A stretch of 64,000 nt of DNA from Spirochaetales bacterium (GTDB lineage: Bacteria > Spirochaetota > Spirochaetia > JABEVK01). This document shows, in pieces, positions 20,182 through 62,611 of the stretch; the stretch's first letter is position 1; each line of letters starts with the position of its first letter. The DNA lies in assembly GCA_947478845.1 (NCBI GenBank), contig CANJXC010000009.1:62001-126000 (forward strand), in the 5' to 3' direction. Below the pieces are notes generated by a model that saw only the letters and a program-made list of their open reading frames with translations, was not told where the DNA came from and did no database searches. A program made the position numbers and the translations under genes.

Positions 20182-20348
20182 GGTGGTTAACCTTCCTCAA
20201 CCCAAGACCTGCCAACATCGTACGTGTCTAGGAGGGACTTGTAAAGTTCTCGGGCACGAGTAAAACCCCGTAATGATCCAACACACGATTGGGGTTGCGA
20301 AATGTTCAAAGACAAGTTATGTTGAGTATGTTGATAGAGGAGGTTATA

Positions 20349-20846
20349 TTGGACGTTCCGATCACCGATCCCCTGCCCTGGTATATCGCGGGGCCCCTAC
20401 TAGGTTTGTTTGTTCCCCTCATGTTGCTTTTAACGGGCAAAGAGCCGGGAGTGTCGAGCTCGTTCCGCCACGCCTGTGCAGCGTTGCTCCCCAAATCGGG
20501 CTTGGATTACTTCAAATACGACTGGCTCAAGACCGGGCTGTGGCAGATCCTGTTCGTCGTCGGTATTTTGCTCGGTGGTACCTTGGTGCAATTCGCCTTG
20601 GGTGGCGCTGGAGTGCCGCTGTTTCTTCCCGAGAACCTCACGGCAGCTGGCTTGGCCGTACTTTTTGGAGGAGGAATCCTCGTTGGCTTTGGCACCCGGT
20701 ACGCTGACGGATGCACCTCGGGGCACACGATCTCTGGAATCTCGAACCTGAGTCTGCCTAGCGTTGTCGCGTCGATCTGCTTTATCCTCGGTGGCACCGC
20801 CGCCAGCTTCGTTCACCGCTTTGCCTTTGGAGGAACCATCCCATGA
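20349..20846 (+). CDS. YeeE/YedE-type sulfur transport protein, N-terminal half
   Basis: 165 residues from a TTG at 20349, chosen because GAGGAGG (20337-20343) lies five bases upstream; an ATG at 20328 in frame would place that site inside the gene. The protein has about four helices and the conserved GFGTRYADGCTSGHTISGIS, in which the cysteine corresponds to a key residue of TsuA/YeeE thiosulfate channels. It is half the usual length; the downstream overlapping gene supplies the other half, as in PmpA/PmpB pairs. Likely role is uptake of thiosulfate or a related sulfur compound. A possible promoter is TTGCGA (20295-20300) and TATGTT (20318-20323). Confidence 0.83.
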   Translation: MDVPITDPLPWYIAGPLLGLFVPLMLLLTGKEPGVSSSFRHACAALLPKSGLDYFKYDWLKTGLWQILFVVGILLGGTLVQFALGGAGVPLFLPENLTAAGLAVLFGGGILVGFGTRYADGCTSGHTISGISNLSLPSVVASICFILGGTAASFVHRFAFGGTIP

Positions 20847-21292
20847 GTGATGTCAAAAAGCCCTCGAACCCTTGGTGGAAGTTTCCACTTTGGTTGCTGC
20901 TCGGCGTCGGTTTTGGCGCCGTTCTTACCTCCGCCCAGGTTATTTCTGTCGTCAGGGTGCGCCGCATGTTCGCATTTGAGGAGCCACACATGTTCTTGGT
21001 CATCGGGGCTGCGGTTGTAACAGGGGTGATCAGCATGTTGCTGGTGAAGGCCCTCCGGAAATCCAAAACCGACCTCTCGGGCGAAGCGATGGAGTTCAAG
21101 GATCGCCCCATGCAACCTGGAATCATCGTTGGCGGTTTGCTGTTTGGAGTTGGCTGGTATTTCACCGCCGCTTGCCCGGGACCCATTTACGCGCTGATCG
21201 GCACGGGAACCTGGACGGCGTTTGCCATTCTCGGCGGCGCCTTGGTAGGGACTTTTTTGTTTGGGGCCGTGAAGAAATATCTGCCGGCCTGA
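20843..21292 (+). CDS. YeeE/YedE-type sulfur transport protein, C-terminal half
   Basis: 149 residues with about four membrane helices. The ATG overlaps the TGA of the preceding gene (ATGA). GIIVGGLLFGVGWYFTAACPGPIYALIGTG contains the ACPGP cysteine motif of the second YeeE repeat. With its partner it should form one pore in the inner membrane. No sulfurtransferase (TusA, rhodanese) gene is next to the pair, although TusA is a frequent neighbour elsewhere. An FKBP gene follows after its own promoter. Confidence 0.83.
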   Translation: MSDVKKPSNPWWKFPLWLLLGVGFGAVLTSAQVISVVRVRRMFAFEEPHMFLVIGAAVVTGVISMLLVKALRKSKTDLSGEAMEFKDRPMQPGIIVGGLLFGVGWYFTAACPGPIYALIGTGTWTAFAILGGALVGTFLFGAVKKYLPA

Positions 21293-23793: not shown

Positions 23794-24852
23794 ATGTCCG
23801 TGACTACCGACGACCTGCGCATCGAAGCCCTCAAGCCCCTGCTTCCTCCCGCCATTCTGATGGAGGAGATTCCCGTTTCCGAGGGCTTTCAAAGCTTTGT
23901 CGCGGCTTCGCGAAAGACCACAGAAGCCATCATCGCGGGAAAGGACGACCGGCTGCTTGTTATTGTTGGCCCTTGTTCGATTCATGACGTTAAGGCTGGC
24001 CTCGAATACGCGCAAAAGCTCGCGTTGCTGCGCGAAGAGTTAAAGCCCGACCTTGAACTGGTGATGCGCGTGTATTTTGAAAAGCCACGGTCGCGCGCCG
24101 GGTGGAAAGGGCTGATCAACGACCCGTTTATCGATGGCAGCTTCCAAATCAACAAGGGTCTGCGGGTGGCCCGCCAGTTCTTGGTGGATGTGGTGAACTT
24201 GGGAGTGCCTACCGCTGTGGAATACCTCGATACCATTAGTCCTCAATTTATTGCCGACTGCGTCACCTGGGGGGCGATTGGAGCCCGAACCACCGAAAGC
24301 CAGGTACACCGCGAACTCGCCTCCGGGCTCTCCACACCGGTTGGTTTTAAAAATGGAACCGATGGCAACATCAAAATCGCCATCGACGCGATTCACGCCT
24401 CCCGCAATCCGCACCACTTTTTGTCGGTGACCAAACAGGGCGTGGCGGCCATCGTGGCCACCCGCGGTAACCACATGGGCCACCTGATTCTGCGGGGGGC
24501 CGGCAGCGCCCCTAACTACGACGAGGCCTCGGTGGCTGCGGCCAGCTCGTCCTTGGCCGAGGCTGGTCTTCCCTCCGGCCTGATGGTCGACTGTTCGCAC
24601 GGCAACTCGCAAAAAGACCATCGGAAACAGCCGTTAGCGGCTGCCGAGGTGTGCAGGCAGGTTGGCGCCGGCTCGAGAAGGGTTTTTGGGGTGATGGTGG
24701 AAAGCCATCTGGTGGGCGGGAACCAGAAAGAGGGCCCGCTGGAGACCCTGGTTTACGGACAGTCGATCACCGACGCCTGCCTGAGCTGGGAGGATACCGT
24801 ACCCGTGCTCGAGCAATTGGCAGCAGCCGTCCGCGCCCGACGAAAACACTAG
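23794..24852 (+). CDS. 3-deoxy-7-phosphoheptulonate synthase (DAHP synthase, AroG/F/H type)
   Basis: 352 residues. VIVGPCSIHDVKAGLEYA, MRVYFEKPRSRAGWKGLINDP, GARTTESQVHRELASGLSTPVGFKNGTDG and VDCSHGNSQKDH are diagnostic of type I-alpha DAHP synthases, which condense phosphoenolpyruvate and erythrose 4-phosphate in the first step of aromatic amino acid synthesis. Length matches AroG/AroF/AroH. Which amino acid inhibits it cannot be told. The ATG at 23794 has no Shine-Dalgarno sequence; an inverted repeat lies directly upstream. The frame extends upstream, but only from this point is there family similarity. Confidence 0.93.
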   Translation: MSVTTDDLRIEALKPLLPPAILMEEIPVSEGFQSFVAASRKTTEAIIAGKDDRLLVIVGPCSIHDVKAGLEYAQKLALLREELKPDLELVMRVYFEKPRSRAGWKGLINDPFIDGSFQINKGLRVARQFLVDVVNLGVPTAVEYLDTISPQFIADCVTWGAIGARTTESQVHRELASGLSTPVGFKNGTDGNIKIAIDAIHASRNPHHFLSVTKQGVAAIVATRGNHMGHLILRGAGSAPNYDEASVAAASSSLAEAGLPSGLMVDCSHGNSQKDHRKQPLAAAEVCRQVGAGSRRVFGVMVESHLVGGNQKEGPLETLVYGQSITDACLSWEDTVPVLEQLAAAVRARRKH

Positions 24853-24868: not shown

Positions 24869-24930
24869 CAGAAAACCTCCCCATCACCCGAAAGGGTGAA
24901 TCGGCGAAAATTCACCCTTTTGGGTGATTC
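24869..24930 (+). repeat. 62-base repeated element, copy 1, with nested hairpins
   Basis: This block recurs at 26488-26549 with one mismatch. Its core is a 19-base inverted repeat (24883-24901 and 24910-24928, one mismatch) around CGGCGAAA. Each arm is itself a hairpin of five G-C/A-T pairs with a GAAA or TTTT loop (CACCC-GAAA-GGGTG). It sits 50 bases before a lipoprotein start codon in both copies. There is no T-run, so it is not a simple terminator for DAHP synthase. Confidence 0.85.
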
Positions 24931-24979
24931 AAAGAACCTGATGCCTCGCGCGAGACTGGAGCCTTACTAAGGAGACTCC

Positions 24980-25897
24980 ATGAAGCGCATATTTTTTGTT
25001 TTGGCAGCCGCAGCACTGTTGCTCGCTGGTTGCGACCTACCGACGGATCCGTCAAAGGGCGGGGCTGGTGGCAACAAGACCTACAGTTGTCCCGATGGAA
25101 CTGGTGGATATGTGGTTCTGACCATTGATTCTGCAGGTACCTTCAGCGTAGAAAATTTATCTCATACGTTAGATTCTGGCACTTGGACGGCTTCCGGGAG
25201 CAACTACTTGCTGCACGGTGGTCAAGACGAAGGACTTTTGACGGTCAGCTCAGGCGGAGCCAAGTACTTCCCCACGGCTAGCATCACCACTTTATACTTT
25301 CAAATGGGCACGGGGGCCACTTCAAACTCTGGTGGGTTAGTTGGCGGAGGCGGTGGCGGAGGTGGTGGCGGAGGTGGTGGCGGCGGCGGCGGAGGCGGCG
25401 GAGCTCCAGCCTCAGCTAGCATTTCCTGGACCGGAGGCGGCACTACCCAATCAGGTTCAACTTATTCTATCAGCAAGATGGTAGGGACAGGGTACAAGAG
25501 ACTTATCCTATCGACTAGCGGGGCCGGCGGGCCGGGTGTGGGGTTCAATATCACCATCAACTTCACCGACGCTGCCTGGACAAAGTTGTGGGACGGTAGC
25601 CCTCACGATTTAGTTTCCTCGGATTTCCAACTCATCGCGGTCAACGCTGTTCTTGGGGGTGCCTACATCGGATGGAGTTATCCCGACACCGGAAGTCCGA
25701 TCACTGGAACACTCTCTGTAAAGGGCTCATTTTCGGGCTCTACCTACACCTTATCGACCTTTAGTACTTCCAATGGCTTCGCCTTCACCTCTGGTACTTA
25801 TGTAAACTATGGTTTCGGTGCAGGTACTAACAACCCCCAAAACACGGGGAGTGCCAACATTGCGATCTCGAACTTTGCCGCAGGTCAGGTCAATTAA
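24980..25897 (+). CDS. Predicted lipoprotein with polyglycine linker (cassette copy 1)
   Basis: 305 residues. MKRIFFVLAAAALLLAGC is a lipoprotein signal (Cys18), preceded by AAGGAGACTCC. The signal and the next 12 or so residues closely resemble those of the lipoprotein gene at 26598. After that the two proteins are unrelated. Residues about 30-115 are a small beta-rich domain (TFSVENLSHTLDSGTWTASG); residues 122-141 are glycine only; residues 146-305 are Ser/Thr/Gly-rich with strands (GFNITINFTD, GTLSVKGSFSGSTYTLSTF). It is likely exposed on the cell surface or in the periplasm. A terminator follows at 25929-25967, then a truncated uppS copy on the other strand. Confidence 0.72.
   Translation: MKRIFFVLAAAALLLAGCDLPTDPSKGGAGGNKTYSCPDGTGGYVVLTIDSAGTFSVENLSHTLDSGTWTASGSNYLLHGGQDEGLLTVSSGGAKYFPTASITTLYFQMGTGATSNSGGLVGGGGGGGGGGGGGGGGGGGGAPASASISWTGGGTTQSGSTYSISKMVGTGYKRLILSTSGAGGPGVGFNITINFTDAAWTKLWDGSPHDLVSSDFQLIAVNAVLGGAYIGWSYPDTGSPITGTLSVKGSFSGSTYTLSTFSTSNGFAFTSGTYVNYGFGAGTNNPQNTGSANIAISNFAAGQVN
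25343..25402 (+). repeat. Five 12-base GGN repeats encoding polyglycine
   Basis: Five in-frame 12-base units, the first three being GGCGGAGGCGGT, GGCGGAGGTGGT and GGCGGAGGTGGT, then two more degenerate ones. They encode 20 glycines (residues 122-141) between the two domains of the lipoprotein. Such tracts can change length by slippage without shifting the frame. Confidence 0.85.
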
Positions 25898-25928
25898 CGC
25901 AGTAGAAGTCAAACGATCTCAGTTTGCT

Positions 25929-25967
25929 CGTGCCAATCCGGAAAGATCTTCCGGGTTGGCACGTTTT
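25929..25967 (+). terminator. Intrinsic terminator after lipoprotein copy 1
   Basis: CGTGCCAA and CCGGAAG on the left pair with CTTCCGG and TTGGCACG on the right (25929-25962), followed by five T (25963-25967). The sequence is unlike the terminator after lipoprotein copy 2, so the terminator belongs to the non-conserved part of the cassette. Confidence 0.88.
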
Positions 25968-25989
25968 TGTGCCCAAACGCGTATATTTC

Positions 25990-26484
25990 CTAGTTCCTCG
26001 AAGGAACTTCCACTTCCACGGCCATCACCTTCCCAAAGTTCCGTTTGCGGCTGGCAAACTCGGCCAAAGCTGCTTCGAGGTCGGCAGCCGTCCAATCGGG
26101 CCACAGTTTGCTGCTAAACACAAACTCGGCGTAGGCGGCCCTCCATAACTGGAAATTGCTCAGCCTCTGTTCGCCCGCGGTGCGGACAACCAAGTCGAGG
26201 TCGGGCACTTCAGGGTGGTCGAGCATCGAAGCCAAGGCCGCCTCGGTGGGCACCTCGCCCGGGTGTCGGGTCTGCCAGCGTGCAAAAGCCCGCACGATTT
26301 CATCGCGGCCGCCGTAGTTGAGTGCTAGGTTGATGGTCATGCCGCTGTGTTCGCGGGTTGCCGACTCCACACGGCGGATAGACTTCTGCACCCCCGCCGG
26401 CAATTGTTCGAGGTCGCCGCTGGCCAACACGCGCAGCTCGAGTTCGTTGTAAAAGTCCATTTCGGCTTCCAGGTGCTTTCCAAT
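25990..26484 (-). pseudogene. Truncated copy of uppS (3' part only)
   Basis: The sequence corresponds to the last 165 or so residues of the intact undecaprenyl diphosphate synthase gene at 28163-28879. Over 156 comparable residues I count about seven differences. Similarity stops abruptly at 26484, four bases before the repeated element at 26488; the corresponding point in the full gene is 28657. The missing part includes the DGNGRW motif with the catalytic aspartate, and no start codon with a ribosome site remains, so it cannot make an active enzyme. An internal ATG at 26460 (MDFYNELELRV) could at most start a 156-residue fragment. Few changes and an open frame suggest that the duplication is recent or that the copy is refreshed by gene conversion. 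Confidence 0.88.
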
Positions 26485-26487
26485 TTG

Positions 26488-26549
26488 CAGAAAACCTCCC
26501 CATCACCCGAAAGGGTGAATCGGCGAAAATTCACCCTTTCGGGTGATTC
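26488..26549 (+). repeat. 62-base repeated element, copy 2
   Basis: Same block as at 24869-24930. Here the 19-base inverted repeat (26502-26520 and 26529-26547, spacer CGGCGAAA) is perfect. It is joined on the left directly to the truncated uppS end and lies 49 bases before the ATG of the second lipoprotein gene. Confidence 0.88.
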
Positions 26550-26597
26550 CGACATCTCTCTGGTCGCGCGAGGATAGTGGATTACGAAGGAGACTCC

Positions 26598-28076
26598 ATG
26601 AAGCTCATACTTTTTATTCTCGCAGCCACGGCACTTTTGCTGGCTAGTTGTGATCAACCGACCGACTCGCCAAAAGCCCCGGCTGGCCCCACGAGTTCGG
26701 TGCCAACCACCTTGGGAGACGCCCCTGGGATTGCCACCGGTTTCGGGACGGGCGGTGTCGCCACTTTTGGTTCCAGCGGAAGTTCTACCTCTATTTTCGG
26801 CGCTAGAGTTGATTCCAGCAATCGGATCCTAGCGATTCAGTACGAGATGTCGCTAGGGCAGGGAGGTTCAATAGCTACAACGAAATTGGTGCGCTACACG
26901 GAAGCGGGAAGCTTGGATACCAGCTTTGGATCCGGGGGCTATTTTGTTCCCCCCACTGTTGCGACAATCGCGACCGCCCTCGGTGTGACTACCTCCGGCA
27001 CACCATCAGTACGTTTTGAGGAATTAGCGGTCGACGCTGACGGATCGGTGTACCTTTGCGGCACTCTCTACTCGGGAGTGTACGGTAGCGCAACCCTGTA
27101 CACATCTTTTCTTGTGAAAGTCACTTCGACCGGCGGCTTGGACACCAGCTTCGGTACAATCGGTACAAATGGGTACCTGAACTTGGGTAATGTGGATGGT
27201 GCGATGGTTCACTCTTTGGCTAGCGGTGTTGTGGTGTCGTTTACATCTGGATCCACCTATGCCACGATTGTAGAGAAAGTCAGTGCTGCCGGGGTCGCAG
27301 GCCCTCAATGCACTGTGGAAGGGGCCACAGGCCTAACCCTTAATGTCGCAGCACCCACGAATGGTCAGACTGGTGAGTACTCCAACCCCGTGAGTTCTCT
27401 TCTTTCGCCGGATGGAAAGTATCTCTATGTACCTGTCTATTTGGTTACTACAGCCAGCAACGTGCTGACGCGGACCCTGAAAGTGGCAAAATTGGACTTG
27501 ACTGGAGATACTCCGGCTCTCGTCTCGGCGTACGGAGCCGGCGGATACGCCAAAACAGATCTTACCCCGTACTCGAGCAGCTATGGGTTCAGCATTTGGG
27601 GGGGGAATGTGGTCGATGGCGATGGCAACGTTATCATATTGGCCCAATCACGCTCGTTGGCCTCCGGTTCTGGGTCACAGACATCAGCAGGATTTCGACT
27701 CGTGCGCTTCACAGCAGGTGGTACTTACGACAACACGGGGTTTGATTCAGCCTATCATTACCCTACCGGTGACGTTAGCGTATGGAGCGCTATTCTTGCC
27801 GGTGGGAAGTTGATTTTTGGGGGCAGTTATCATGCCACCGGGTCAACCACCAGCTCCGGTTGCTTGCTGCGATTCGACAGCACGACCGGTGCGCAGGATA
27901 CGACGTACGGTACGAGCGGTATCCTTAAACCCCTATCGTCTTTGAACGCGCCTAGCTCCTTTATCACGGCTTTGATTCTCGACCGGGGGTCCATTTTGGC
28001 AATAGGCAACACAATGGGTGCCTCGTCGTCTGGGAGCATGTCCAGTATGACCACAGTGATGGTGCGCCTCCAATAG
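26598..28076 (+). CDS. Predicted lipoprotein with delta-60-like repeats (cassette copy 2)
   Basis: 492 residues. MKLILFILAATALLLASC is a lipoprotein signal (Cys18) preceded by the same AAGGAGACTCC leader as the gene at 24980. The mature part contains motifs like GSLDTSFGSGGYF and GGLDTSFGTIGTNGYL, and later TGAQDTTYGTSGIL, which resemble delta-60 repeats, a beta-propeller-like repeat family in large secreted proteins. Between them are strands such as DGSVYLCGTLYSG and DGNVIILAQSRS. This suggests one beta-propeller domain on the outside of the cell or in the periplasm. It shares only the first 30 or so residues with its neighbour. It ends at a bidirectional terminator shared with uppS. Confidence 0.75.
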   Translation: MKLILFILAATALLLASCDQPTDSPKAPAGPTSSVPTTLGDAPGIATGFGTGGVATFGSSGSSTSIFGARVDSSNRILAIQYEMSLGQGGSIATTKLVRYTEAGSLDTSFGSGGYFVPPTVATIATALGVTTSGTPSVRFEELAVDADGSVYLCGTLYSGVYGSATLYTSFLVKVTSTGGLDTSFGTIGTNGYLNLGNVDGAMVHSLASGVVVSFTSGSTYATIVEKVSAAGVAGPQCTVEGATGLTLNVAAPTNGQTGEYSNPVSSLLSPDGKYLYVPVYLVTTASNVLTRTLKVAKLDLTGDTPALVSAYGAGGYAKTDLTPYSSSYGFSIWGGNVVDGDGNVIILAQSRSLASGSGSQTSAGFRLVRFTAGGTYDNTGFDSAYHYPTGDVSVWSAILAGGKLIFGGSYHATGSTTSSGCLLRFDSTTGAQDTTYGTSGILKPLSSLNAPSSFITALILDRGSILAIGNTMGASSSGSMSSMTTVMVRLQ

Positions 28077-28100
28077 CCTTGTTGGTTCTCGTTCTGAGCT

Positions 28101-28132
28101 AGAAAAAAAGGGGCCCTCTGGGGCCCCTTTTT
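28101..28132. terminator. Bidirectional terminator between lipoprotein copy 2 and uppS
   Basis: GGGGCCC (28110-28116) pairs with GGGCCCC (28121-28127) with a TCTG loop, flanked by A7 on the left and T5 on the right, so it can act for both convergent genes. Confidence 0.85.
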
Positions 28133-28162
28133 CTTAAGTCTCAACCTTTTCTTCCCGGAAGT

Positions 28163-28879
28163 TTAGTTCCTCGAAGGTACTTCCACTTCCACGGCCATCA
28201 CCTTCCCAAAGTTCCGTTTGCGACTGGTGAACTCGGCCAGGGCAGCGTCGAGGTCGGCTGCCGTCCAATCGGGCCACAGTTTGCTGCTGAACACAAACTC
28301 GGCGTAGGCGACCCTCCACAACTGGAAATTGCTCAGCCTCTGTTCGCCGGCGGTGCGGACGACCAAATCGAGGTCGGGCACTTCAGGGTGGTCGAGCATC
28401 GAACTCAAGGCCGCCTCGGTGGGCACCTCGCCCGGGTGTCGGGCCTGCCAGCGTGCAAAAGTCCGCACGATTTCATCGCGGCCGCCGTAGTTGAGTGCTA
28501 GGTTGATGGTCATCCCGCTGTGTTCGCGGGTTGCCGACTCCACACGGCGGATAGACTTCTGCACCCCCGCCGGCAATTGTTCGAGGTCGCCGCTGGCCAA
28601 CACGCGCAACTCGAGTTCGTTGTAAAAGTCCATTTCGGCTTCCAGGTGCTTTCCAATGAGGCCCATGAGGAAGTCCACCTCGCGGGTGGGGCGGCCGCTG
28701 TTCTCGGTGGAAAATACATAGAGGGTGAGGAACTTCACGCCAGCTTCGGCGGCGGCCCGGGTGACGCGCCTAGCAGCCTTGAGCCCTTCTAGGTGGCCCT
28801 GCGAGCGGTCTTTTCCTTGGCGCGTGGCCCAGCGTCCGTTTCCGTCCATGATGATGCCAAGGTGTAAGGGGTGTTTCAC
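28163..28879 (-). CDS. uppS: Isoprenyl transferase / undecaprenyl diphosphate synthase
   Basis: 238 residues from a GTG at 28879 with AGGAG seven bases upstream. HLGIIMDGNGRWA (catalytic Asp12), TLYVFSTENSGRP, LNYGGRDEI and DLVVRTAGEQRLSNFQLWRVAYAEF with the downstream W.DW segment are all typical of cis-prenyltransferases, which make the C55 lipid carrier for peptidoglycan and surface glycans. Length is normal, so this is the functional copy; a truncated duplicate of its 3' part lies at 25990-26484. It is divergent from the membrane LuxR gene. The usual partner cdsA is not adjacent. Confidence 0.93.
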   Translation of the reverse strand: MKHPLHLGIIMDGNGRWATRQGKDRSQGHLEGLKAARRVTRAAAEAGVKFLTLYVFSTENSGRPTREVDFLMGLIGKHLEAEMDFYNELELRVLASGDLEQLPAGVQKSIRRVESATREHSGMTINLALNYGGRDEIVRTFARWQARHPGEVPTEAALSSMLDHPEVPDLDLVVRTAGEQRLSNFQLWRVAYAEFVFSSKLWPDWTAADLDAALAEFTSRKRNFGKVMAVEVEVPSRN

Positions 28880-28967: not shown

Positions 28968-29921
28968 ATGCTTTGGAGTCTTTTGGTGCCCTTGCTGGCC
29001 GTCCTTTCGGGAGTTCCTGCTCTCACCATCGCCTGGCTCGCCGGGCATCAGACCCGAGATCCGGCGCGCCGCTTATTTGCTGGAGGTCTGTCCCTCCTGA
29101 CCGCGATCATCGTGTTGGTGATGGCCGGAGTTTTTGTCGACCTTCGTCCCCTTGCCGATTCGCTGACTTCAGGCCCGGGGCTCAAGTTTGTTTTTTGGAA
29201 TCTCACTTTTCTCGTCGCCTTCGCCAGTCTAATCGTGTTCCGGAGGTTCTCGACGGTGGTGCTCGGGCAGCCTCGTCCCCTTGGGGTGGTCTTCTGGACC
29301 TTTAGTGTGATTTTTTACGCGGGGGCTCTGCTGTTGGGCTTTGTCAGCGACCCGCCTGTTCTCGACTTTCAGGGTAACACCCCTTCTGGGCTGGCAACAG
29401 CCTACTACTTGGTGGGCATTAGCAGTCCGGCTTGGAGGGTGTGGCGAGGACGGAAATCTCTTCCTCGCTGGCTTGAGCCCCTGGTGGGGAAGTTGGCTTG
29501 GATACTTTTGCCGCTAGGTGTTTTGACGCTTTTGTGGGAAACCCTGAGGGGGCTGGGGCTTCTGACTGGCTGGCCCTCGTTGACCCCTTTGGTGTTTCTG
29601 AGTTTCTTTGCCCTGGTTACCTACGAGCTGGTGCGCCGCTTTCCATCACCGGGTATGGCCACCGATGCCCGCACCCAGGCCGAGAGGCTTGTCGAGAAGT
29701 TTCCGTCACAAAAAATCACCCCACGCGAGCAGGAAATCCTGATTCTTCTGCTGGAAGGCCGCAAGAATCAGCAGATCGCCTCGGTGTTGGGAGTTTCAGG
29801 GCACACGGTGAAGAACCACGTATACAACCTGTACCAAAAACTCGGTACCGATAACCGGCTTGAATTGCAGGCGCTCGCCGCGGACAGTAGTCCTATGGGC
29901 TCTTGGCAAACTCCAAAGTGA
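28968..29921 (+). CDS. Membrane protein with C-terminal LuxR-type helix-turn-helix
   Basis: 317 residues. The first 220 hold six or seven hydrophobic helices; the last 70 or so are a LuxR/GerE DNA-binding domain (ITPREQEILILLLEGRKNQQIASVLGVS, then HTVKNHVYNLYQKLGTDNRLEL). There is no receiver domain, so it is probably a one-component regulator that senses a signal in or across the membrane while bound to DNA. The start has no Shine-Dalgarno sequence; TATAGT ends five bases upstream and an 8-base inverted repeat precedes it, so autoregulation is plausible. Its target might be the divergent uppS gene or distant genes. Its 3' end overlaps the GH31-like gene by 29 bases. Confidence 0.82.
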   Translation: MLWSLLVPLLAVLSGVPALTIAWLAGHQTRDPARRLFAGGLSLLTAIIVLVMAGVFVDLRPLADSLTSGPGLKFVFWNLTFLVAFASLIVFRRFSTVVLGQPRPLGVVFWTFSVIFYAGALLLGFVSDPPVLDFQGNTPSGLATAYYLVGISSPAWRVWRGRKSLPRWLEPLVGKLAWILLPLGVLTLLWETLRGLGLLTGWPSLTPLVFLSFFALVTYELVRRFPSPGMATDARTQAERLVEKFPSQKITPREQEILILLLEGRKNQQIASVLGVSGHTVKNHVYNLYQKLGTDNRLELQALAADSSPMGSWQTPK

Positions 29922-46951: not shown

Positions 46952-47413
46952 ATGGAAACCCCAATGAAACAGCGTGTTCTTGTCTGGTTGCCCCCCGACG
47001 GTGATTCCCGGGCCCAAAAGTGGCAAATCAACTACGCTCGGCAAACCCGGCGCTCGGAACTCTTGGGACGCCCAGCTCATGCGCGTGTGGAGCCTCCGGG
47101 TGTCCGCCCCCGCGGCCGACTAAAGACAGGGGTTTGGAGAAGCGATGCCACGGGACTTTATCTATCCTTGACCGATGGCTTGGGTTGGGCCGGAGAGTTG
47201 CGTTTGGGGGAGGCTGCCGAACCGCCCCTTCCTGTACCCCAAGATCTGCCGGACTGGACTTGGCGCCGGGGAAGACTGGCGTGGCTCAATGAAGAGACTT
47301 CAGGGCTTTCTGTGACTTGGCAGTGGGAGCCGGTTTCCGGTTGGAAGGCTTGGGAACCCAAGGAACCAGTGAGTTTGCACGTCCCAAACTTGCGTGTCCC
47401 GAAGCCACAATAA
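46952..47413 (+). CDS. Small arginine/tryptophan-rich protein, unknown function
   Basis: 153 residues starting METPMKQRVLVWLPPDGDSRAQKW; a second ATG at 46964 is an alternative start. It is basic, with many Trp and Pro (DWTWRRGRLAWLNEE), and has no signal or membrane helix. Support for it being real is a promoter at 46917-46946 and a frame open over its full length; against it, the last 128 bases overlap the convergent lipoprotein gene. I recognise no family. Confidence 0.5.
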   Translation: METPMKQRVLVWLPPDGDSRAQKWQINYARQTRRSELLGRPAHARVEPPGVRPRGRLKTGVWRSDATGLYLSLTDGLGWAGELRLGEAAEPPLPVPQDLPDWTWRRGRLAWLNEETSGLSVTWQWEPVSGWKAWEPKEPVSLHVPNLRVPKPQ

Positions 47414-48200
47414 GCCAGGAATTGGCCTTGTCCCGGCACCAAGTGCGGTTTGCGGTGCATCCAACTGGCGTGTGTTCCGTGATTGCCAACTCGGATTGGG
47501 TCTGTTTGGCCAAAGCCTGACCTTCCCCTGCCCGTAGACTCCACACAAACTGATCTGTCGGTGGTGACTCAGGATCGGGTCGAACGCTTAGCACGCCGGC
47601 TACGGCTGAAAGTCCTTTTCCACCTGGCTGAATGTAAACCCTAGTGCCAAGGGCCGAGCCGGCTTTGTACAGAACAATCACGTAGTTACCCTGAGAAACT
47701 TGGACATCGGGAAACACCATTTCCCGCCTTTCGCGGCCCGGGCCCCGGTATTCAAGCGTAATTCCGCCCAAGTTGCCGGCTTCCAGTACCAGCAACTCCA
47801 CCCCGTCGGGCTTTTTTCCCGAACCTGCAAACCTGACTTCGTTCAGCCTGAGCTTGGCGGGGTGCCGATTAGGGCCTAGAACAGTTCCTTGCAAACTCGT
47901 TGGATTCCCCGCTAGGTCGGTGACCGAGACGTTCCATCGGTAGCGCTGACCGGGGTGCAGCGACGATGGCAGGGGAAGCTTTAACTTTGTGTCTTCCACC
48001 TCGAGCGGCAGACCGCCCTCGGCGAACTCTGCTTCCGCTTCCGCCTTGCCTAGATTTTCGTCCCATTCCAACGTAAGAGTCTCTAGCCCTGCCAGGTAGC
48101 TTCGTTTCAACTTCGGCCCTTGCGTATCGGTGGGGCCGGTAAGCCCACAGGCGGAAAGACCGATTACTGAGAGAAAAAGCAGCAGGCAAACTATACGCAT
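47286..48200 (-). CDS. Predicted lipoprotein, unknown function
   Basis: 304 residues. MRIVCLLLFLSVIGLSAC is a lipoprotein signal (Cys18), with AAGGAGG upstream of the ATG. The mature part resembles two beta domains: first an Ig-like unit (YRWNVSVTDLAGNPTSLQGTVLG), then one like the lamin-tail/LTD fold (RLNEVRFAGSGKKPDGVELLVLEAGNLGGITLEY, then QGNYVIVLYKAG). LTD domains occur in secreted bacterial proteins, but I give this only as a likeness. Its last 128 bases overlap the convergent gene at 46952-47413. Confidence 0.75.
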   Translation of the reverse strand: MRIVCLLLFLSVIGLSACGLTGPTDTQGPKLKRSYLAGLETLTLEWDENLGKAEAEAEFAEGGLPLEVEDTKLKLPLPSSLHPGQRYRWNVSVTDLAGNPTSLQGTVLGPNRHPAKLRLNEVRFAGSGKKPDGVELLVLEAGNLGGITLEYRGPGRERREMVFPDVQVSQGNYVIVLYKAGSALGTRVYIQPGGKGLSAVAGVLSVRPDPESPPTDQFVWSLRAGEGQALAKQTQSELAITEHTPVGCTANRTWCRDKANSWLIVASGHASLGRANSLVPWVPKPSNRKPAPTAKSQKALKSLH

Positions 48201-61577: not shown

Positions 61578-62611
61578 ATCCGATCAAACCACCTTTGCTG
61601 TCCCCTGGCGCTTTACTGGCCTTGCTGAGTCCTTCTTGGGGAGGCCCGGCCGCTTACCCGCCGGTTTTTGAGGCTGGGAAGGCTATGCTTGCCGAAAACT
61701 TCGGCTTCCGCTTCGTCGAATATCCCACCACTCGATGGACCGCCGAGCAGCTCGACCAGGATCCGCAAGCCCGGGCGAGGGATTTCAACCAAGCGTTCGC
61801 CGACCCGAAAGTGGAGGGTCTTTTGGCCACGATTGGTGGCAACGACGCCATACGTATTCTCCCGTTTCTCGACTTGGATTTAATTCGTCGTAACCCGAAA
61901 CTGGTGATGGGCTACTCCGATGCTACGGCCTACCTGACGTGGCTCAGCCAGAATGGTGTGGTGAGCTACTATGGCAACACCGTGATGTCGGGCTGGCCAC
62001 AGATGGCCAGTTTTCCGCCGGCTCTGGACTGGCACCGCCAGTTTTTCCAAGGTGAAGTTCCTGCGCTGGAACCGTTTCCCTTTTGGACGCAGGGTTACCG
62101 CAACTGGAACACCAGTGCCAATCAAGTTCTTGAGCCTCAGCCGAACTCTGGTTTTACTTGGCTTGGTGGTGACGGTACGACCCGCGGAAGGCTTTGGGGC
62201 GGGTGCTTCGAGGTGCTGGAAATGCTCAAGGGGACTCGTTTTTGGCCCTCCCGCGACTTTTGGAATCATCGGGTGCTTTTCCTCGAAACCAGCGAGGAGA
62301 AGCCATTGCCCCGACAAGTAACCTATTGGCTGCGAAATTATGGGGCTATGGGAGTCTTCGGCCAGCTTTCTGCGTTGTGGATAGGCCGACCAAAAGACTA
62401 CACCGACGCCGAAAAAGCTGAATTGCGCCGCGTGGTGAAAGGGGTGGTAGGGGAAGAATGGGGCGCAGTAGGGCTACCCATCGTGATGGACCTAGACTTT
62501 GGGCACACCGACCCTCGCTGGGTGTTGCCCTTGGGAATTGAAGTGGAGACCGACCCCCAAAACCGTCGTTTGAGCTTTACGGAGCCGCTGTTTTCCGGTC
62601 TAAGTCCATGA
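61574..62611 (+). CDS. LD-carboxypeptidase family S66 (MccF/LdcA)
   Basis: 345 residues from a TTG at 61574, which overlaps the RluA-type stop codon (TTGA). LSPGALLALLSPSWGGPA, the nucleophile-containing VMGYSDATAYLTWL (Ser at about 115) and GGCFEVLEMLKGTRFWPS with FLETSEEKP fit the S66 family. Members remove D-amino acids from tetrapeptides in cell-wall recycling or destroy microcin-type compounds. The distinctive insert length and NWNTSANQVLEPQPNSGFTWLGG are nearer to the MccF-like branch. It ends the operon and overlaps the lipase-like gene by 35 bases. Confidence 0.88.
   Translation: MNPIKPPLLSPGALLALLSPSWGGPAAYPPVFEAGKAMLAENFGFRFVEYPTTRWTAEQLDQDPQARARDFNQAFADPKVEGLLATIGGNDAIRILPFLDLDLIRRNPKLVMGYSDATAYLTWLSQNGVVSYYGNTVMSGWPQMASFPPALDWHRQFFQGEVPALEPFPFWTQGYRNWNTSANQVLEPQPNSGFTWLGGDGTTRGRLWGGCFEVLEMLKGTRFWPSRDFWNHRVLFLETSEEKPLPRQVTYWLRNYGAMGVFGQLSALWIGRPKDYTDAEKAELRRVVKGVVGEEWGAVGLPIVMDLDFGHTDPRWVLPLGIEVETDPQNRRLSFTEPLFSGLSP

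Follow-up and report, generated by a model that had tools for sequence, protein, structure and literature searches.

Organization of the locus

The genome of a Spirochaetales bacterium (assembly GCA_947478845.1) contains a tandem pair of units with two lipoprotein genes, here called A and B, located between aroF and a LuxR-type gene starting at position 28968. All positions refer to the window, which is the whole analyzed stretch of 64,000 nucleotides (nt; positions 62,001 to 126,000 of contig CANJXC010000009.1), and the features are listed in Table 1. Unit 1 (24869-26484) comprises a 62-nt palindromic element, lipoprotein gene A, a terminator and a 3' fragment of uppS on the minus strand, and unit 2 (26488-28657) has the same order with a second copy of the element, lipoprotein gene B, a different terminator and a complete uppS. 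The element and the uppS 3' end are the sole self-matches in the 64-kb window (E<=1e-8). The host genome is a draft assembly of 2.99 Mb in 22 contigs with a completeness of 99.75%.

Table 1. Features of the tandem lipoprotein locus and of a related site on another contig.
Feature	Position	Strand	Remarks
aroF, DAHP synthase; borders the tandem on the left	23794-24852	+	Pfam DAHP_synth_1 E=2.7e-85; same-family orthologs 68-74% identical
62-nt element, copy 1	24869-24930		18-nt palindromes 24883-24900 and 24911-24928 in inverted arrangement; fold z=-4.05
Ribosome-binding leader AAGGAGACTCC, copy 1	24969-24979	+	Identical in both units
Lipoprotein A	24980-25897	+	305 residues; lipobox LAGC; two presumed beta-rich stretches linked by ~23 Gly; no known family
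Lipoprotein A terminator	25929-25963	+	15-bp stem, T run
Truncated uppS copy, pseudogene	25990-26484	-	C-terminal 164 residues; Pfam Prenyltransf match limited to profile 80-219
Novel joint of the tandem duplication	26485-26488		Mid-uppS joined to element copy 2; ~3 nt filler, no long shared sequence
62-nt element, copy 2	26488-26549		One mismatch (T/C) to copy 1; fold z=-4.45
Ribosome-binding leader AAGGAGACTCC, copy 2	26587-26597	+	Identical in both units
Lipoprotein B	26598-28076	+	492 residues; lipobox LASC; delta-60/DUF5122 repeats in mature part
Lipoprotein B terminator-like hairpin	28102-28135	+	GGGGCCC...GGGCCCC followed by T run; read from the sequence; unrelated to that of A
Full-length uppS	28163-28879	-	Pfam Prenyltransf E=1e-70; only complete uppS of the genome
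Third lipoprotein	L154:3075-3689; with palindrome L154:3007-3689 (G000:C17:8505-9188)		204 residues; lipobox LGGC

A first-pass annotation of this stretch had put the identity of the two uppS 3' ends (25991-26484 versus 28164-28657) at about 96 percent. This value is correct for the whole alignment (473 of 494 nt), but the identity is unevenly distributed and the copy in unit 1 is a 5'-truncated pseudogene, which must be dead as it lacks the N-terminal ~74 residues including the conserved DGNGRW motif. A search of the genome against itself revealed no third uppS. The homology on the right side ends at the uppS stop codon (TAG versus TAA). The truncated uppS is joined directly to the second element at 26484/26488 with the sequence TTCCAAT-TTG-CAGAAAACC, which identifies the arrangement as a tandem duplication with a new joint and not as two separate insertions.

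Two lipoproteins with related signal peptides and unrelated mature parts

Signal peptide and lipobox can be read directly from both proteins, with the cysteine at about residue 18 (LLLAGC in A, LLLASC in B), and the Pfam profile LPAM_1 matches A only under its cutoff (14 bits versus 20). The signal peptides had been described as near-identical, but they are only related: 20 of 31 residues (65%) agree. Beyond this region the similarity is lost. As claimed in the first-pass annotation, the mature proteins and the terminators are unrelated; the best BLASTP hit between mature A and mature B has an E value of 0.68, and the two cannot be aligned. Lipoprotein B matches the Pfam family DUF5122 (PF17164) with 31.3 bits, above the cutoff of 27, and TIGR02608 with E=8e-15 and 54.4 bits, under the cutoff of 76.5, so the proposed relation to delta-60 repeats is probably real but weak. 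Its mature part presumably folds as a beta-propeller. Lipoprotein A does not belong to the delta-60 repeat/DUF5122 proteins. Its polyglycine linker, which had also been noted before, amounts to ~23 residues and is encoded by an in-frame GGN tract at 25342-25401 (period 12/3). Such a tract is prone to length change without frameshift.

A search of the PDB gave no match to lipoprotein B and for A only glycine-linker constructs such as single-chain variable fragments (scFvs), which we rejected as an artefact. The quality of the structures modeled from single sequences (predicted local distance difference test, pLDDT, 36 for A and 44 for B) did not suffice to search for similar folds. Each gene is probably expressed from its own copy of the palindromic element, and both products are probably lipid-anchored in the envelope.

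Divergence rises toward the lipoprotein cassettes

The two outer ends of the units, comprising the 62-nt element and 194 nt of uppS, differ at 3 of 256 nt (~1%). Within uppS, 2 differences were counted in the 194 nt by the joint and 19 in the 300 nt by the lipoprotein gene (Fisher p=0.005), which corresponds to a divergence of 6.3% in the inner flank beside the cassette. On the other side of the cassette, leader and start of the gene are identical at 95 of 123 nt, and the 28 differing positions amount to 23%. The divergence therefore climbs from 1% over 6.3% and 23% to unalignable sequence, and the outer ends differ significantly from all inner flanks (p=2e-7) as well as from the inner uppS flank alone (p=0.002). 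A divergence rising toward a non-homologous cassette is the trace expected of exchange between diverged strains, and it is found here at flanks that would fit a strain-variable (allelic) locus. The novel joint and the truncated duplicate gene are likewise what would be expected of a tandem merodiploid.

Further evidence comes from the type of changes in uppS, as 14 of the differences between the copies are synonymous and 7 non-synonymous (ratio of non-synonymous to synonymous rates, dN/dS, ~0.15). Drift of a pseudogene after plain duplication would predict 12-14 non-synonymous changes among the 21, and the probability of seeing seven or fewer is 0.002-0.025, a range that reflects assumptions on transition bias and constraint. 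The synonymous excess suggests that most of the uppS divergence arose while both copies were functional, presumably in two strains, or that it was shaped by gene conversion. Polarizing the six amino-acid differences in UppS with the help of relatives gave a mixed result and marked neither A nor B as the newcomer. Taken together, the conserved flanks with divergence on both sides of the cassettes, the synonymous uppS changes and the unalignable cassettes favor cassette replacement over duplication followed by drift, as had been proposed from the first inspection of the sequence.

Search for paralogs, donors and relatives

No paralog of A or B was found in this genome, and no cassette reservoir turned up in it, whether the query was the element, either full protein, the ribosome-binding pattern or a signal-peptide profile; the signal peptide has no further copy in the genome except one weak relative. 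About 60 relatives contain no full-length relative of A or B, only short, weak, low-complexity or repeat matches. In 98 relatives the signal-peptide profile retrieved generic lipoprotein signal peptides only, the best of which (E=6e-6) precedes a solute-binding-like lipoprotein without the palindrome. Among plasmids, neither B nor the N-terminal part of A had a match. As there is neither a paralog in the genome nor a full-length relative in the 60 relatives, A and B look like strain-variable accessory genes. The low GC content at third codon positions (GC3) of A (0.54) and B (0.57) compared with 0.66-0.77 in neighboring housekeeping genes fits such accessory genes.

The nearest relatives are Spirochaetia whose UppS is 55-56% identical, and the named ones among them are metagenome-assembled Treponema sp. 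and Spirochaetia genomes. A lipoprotein locus of this kind is shown by no relative examined. The three best-preserved of the relatives examined have uppS in the order frr-uppS-cdsA-rseP, whereas here it is found near aroF on the opposite strand. The interval from aroF to a glycosidase-like gene and glmS holds a SulP transporter in one relative, so this interval is variable at the family level, which fits an insertion-tolerant site.

A palindromic element upstream of three lipoprotein genes

The 62-nt element, whose presence in both units had been noted before and is confirmed here with a single mismatch, consists of two inverted 18-nt palindromes, ATCACCC(N4)GGGTGA(A/T), which as RNA are predicted to form a 19-bp hairpin. 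The leader that follows had been described as shared. This applies exactly to AAGGAGACTCCATGAAG at 24969 and 26587 (none of 100 window shuffles reached an equal match count), but the rest of the stretch between the element and the ribosome-binding site is identical at only ~55% of positions, counted on the alignment. The right edge of the palindrome is therefore the first sharp drop in identity, from 61/62 to ~55%.

No full copy of the element exists in the whole genome beyond these two. With at most one mismatch the palindrome occurs five times genome-wide, four times in the two elements and once at position 8505 of contig C17. The first-pass annotation had named absence of the element elsewhere as an outcome that would speak against cassette replacement. 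This outcome applies to the full element only, as a half-copy stands before a third lipoprotein gene on another contig. The spacing between this half-element and the start of the third lipoprotein downstream is exactly 51 nt, compared with 51 nt in front of A and 50 nt in front of B. The gene upstream of the third lipoprotein is followed by a strong hairpin of its own, read from the sequence, which makes it more likely that the palindrome is part of the third lipoprotein gene. The mature protein of the latter is not related to lipoprotein A. Its motif after the cysteine, CDxxTxPS, has counterparts in unrelated spirochete lipoproteins; likeness of signal peptides alone is therefore weak evidence of kinship, and this tempers its use as a cassette border.

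In other genomes, one-mismatch matches of the palindrome are scattered, with 0-4 per genome and without the paired arrangement, so that the element looks specific to this genome. A search of Rfam gave nothing near the gathering score of any family. Because of the fixed spacing of 50-51 nt before lipoprotein starts, we infer that the element is probably regulatory, acting as an operator or 5' hairpin for a small set of lipoproteins, rather than a mobile element. A palindrome at this distance from three otherwise unrelated lipoproteins points to a small, undescribed lipoprotein regulon. A membrane-type LuxR regulator is encoded at 28968-29921 directly past uppS and is a candidate for acting on the palindrome.

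Origin of the tandem

On balance, we slightly favor the reading that recombination of incoming DNA placed two alleles of a single lipoprotein locus, derived from different strains, in tandem. The tandem structure, the joint, the truncated uppS, the unrelated cassettes, the uneven divergence, the synonymous bias in uppS and the lack of paralogs in the genome are directly observed, and the donor would be another strain, with a polymorphism at this locus as the source. The homology begins at the uppS stop codon, which indicates that the donor cassette also adjoined a uppS 3' end, and as the genome has no third uppS, the donor would be external or an ancestral copy. The simplest donor would be the same locus of another strain.

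According to this model, the interval between aroF and uppS would house an exchangeable lipoprotein gene, of which A and B are alternative alleles. They differ wholly in mature protein and terminator and have the palindromic element, the related leader and signal peptide and the neighboring uppS in common. DNA with the other allele would enter the cell, and recombination would retain both alleles in tandem. One side would involve homologous pairing, whereas on the other side mid-uppS would be joined illegitimately to the beginning of the element, so that a dead uppS fragment would come to separate the two alleles. The same result would be reached by a tandem duplication in which one cassette was afterwards replaced, with homologous exchange taking place in the left-hand element and in the right-hand uppS. 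The further idea that the element serves both as regulator and as left crossover site, behind which wholly different lipoproteins with a common leader and signal peptide are swapped across strains, is rather doubtful.

Several points weigh against the joining of two strain alleles. The searches turned up no genome that carries just one of the alleles at this position, so the donor strain is inferred, and the nearest relatives keep the frr-uppS-cdsA-rseP order and have other genes after aroF. Other, unrelated lipoproteins encoded here likewise have a low GC3 (0.58 for 47286-48200 and 0.56 for the third lipoprotein), which means that import is not proven by GC3. In addition, the synonymous excess is based on 21 changes, and some of the pattern could equally have been produced by gene conversion between the two copies of uppS, which is a chief source of uncertainty.

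Gene conversion is also central to the best surviving alternative, an old tandem duplication in one lineage whose uppS ends were homogenized while one or both lipoprotein genes were separately replaced or rebuilt from unrelated DNA. Conversion would likewise give few non-synonymous changes and an identity gradient, and the near-identical outer ends fit as well, but this scenario needs a further, unspecified source for the new lipoprotein in which leader and signal peptide were nevertheless retained, and the genome contains no donor. We consider it possible but unlikely. The two alleles with flanks diverged by ~1-6%, which is typical of strain mixtures, could also represent an assembly chimera of this 22-contig draft, in which the assembler placed the haplotypes of two strains from a mixed population one behind the other. 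Such an error is improbable, as the joint offers no long sequence common to both sides for an assembler to walk through, and even then both alleles would still be present in the population.

The tandem joint is real and the signal peptides are still related, as would be expected if a plain duplication had been followed by very fast divergence of initially identical lipoproteins. This explanation is nevertheless very unlikely, as A and B show no detectable similarity (E=0.68) and differ in length (305 versus 492 residues) and in type (no family versus delta-60), their terminators are unrelated too and the linked neutral uppS fragment is still 96% identical. With such a neutral neighbor, drift cannot interconvert A and B. 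A small mobile or site-specific element carrying the cassette, with the palindrome as recognition site, would account for the drop in identity exactly at its right edge, but there is no integrase or transposase between the units, no second palindrome marks the right-hand end of the homology, which lies in uppS, and the fixed distance of the third half-copy from its start codon suggests regulation, which makes this explanation very unlikely. Programmed antigenic variation, in which stored cassettes are copied into the mature domain of an expressed gene by gene conversion, would be in line with a spirochete host and with a variable lipoprotein whose 5' end and flank are conserved, but it is contradicted in this genome and extremely improbable, since there are no stored cassettes (no paralog of A or B, no further full element, one weak relative of the signal peptide), A and B are unequal in length and lack a common frame, unlike vls and tprK (PMC4534519), and the 99.75% complete assembly in 22 contigs could conceal only a small missing piece.

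Comparison with known systems

The likeness to antigenic variation by vls of Borrelia and tprK of Treponema proposed by the first-pass annotation is therefore not supported, because without another full element and without paralogs there is no donor reservoir. These spirochete systems (PMC4534519) also have conserved ends around a variable part, and VlsE is a lipoprotein, but here silent cassettes and segmental conversion in a common frame are missing and both genes look complete. Most likely the locus is the relic of a common type of gene exchange and not an active system for switching antigens, and it gives no evidence of a new switching mechanism.

Alleles of OspC are homologous variants of one fold, whereas A and B are non-homologous and come from one genome. 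Apart from this, ospC and dbpA of Lyme Borrelia are comparable as lipoprotein loci that are spots of recombination between strains within conserved surroundings (PMC11389397). A close parallel to the tandem itself is found in S. pneumoniae, in which transformation creates tandem merodiploids (PMC3784515). In the pneumococcal merodiploids and binary-capsule strains, too, two alternative alleles are retained in tandem, with a novel joint and duplicated neighbor genes, but these duplications are ~100-900 kb long, unstable and formed between repeats (PMC3784515), whereas the one described here is ~2 kb long, apparently stabilized and has a joint without a long repeat. The myxobacterial SitA lipoprotein toxins resemble A and B in their modular, unrelated C-terminal parts, but have a shared escort domain of ~375 residues and an immunity gene (PMC8546572), whereas A and B have nothing but the signal peptide in common and lack a partner gene. 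Neither A nor B matches a toxin family, and the next gene is the uppS fragment or uppS and not an immunity gene.

If two strain alleles were indeed joined, one genome would record two unrelated alleles at one locus together with the recombination joining them. Envelope lipoproteins would then be exchanged whole between strains in an apparently little-studied spirochete lineage, similar to capsule or O-antigen loci, and single-allele forms of the locus are predicted to exist.

Additional observations in the surroundings

The genome encodes a second, different DAHP synthase (G000:C20:5970-6971), which is 49% identical to the aroF product of 23794-24852. Further upstream, at 20289-21292, two adjacent small membrane proteins resemble, as judged by eye, the halves of a YeeE/YedE-type sulfur transporter.

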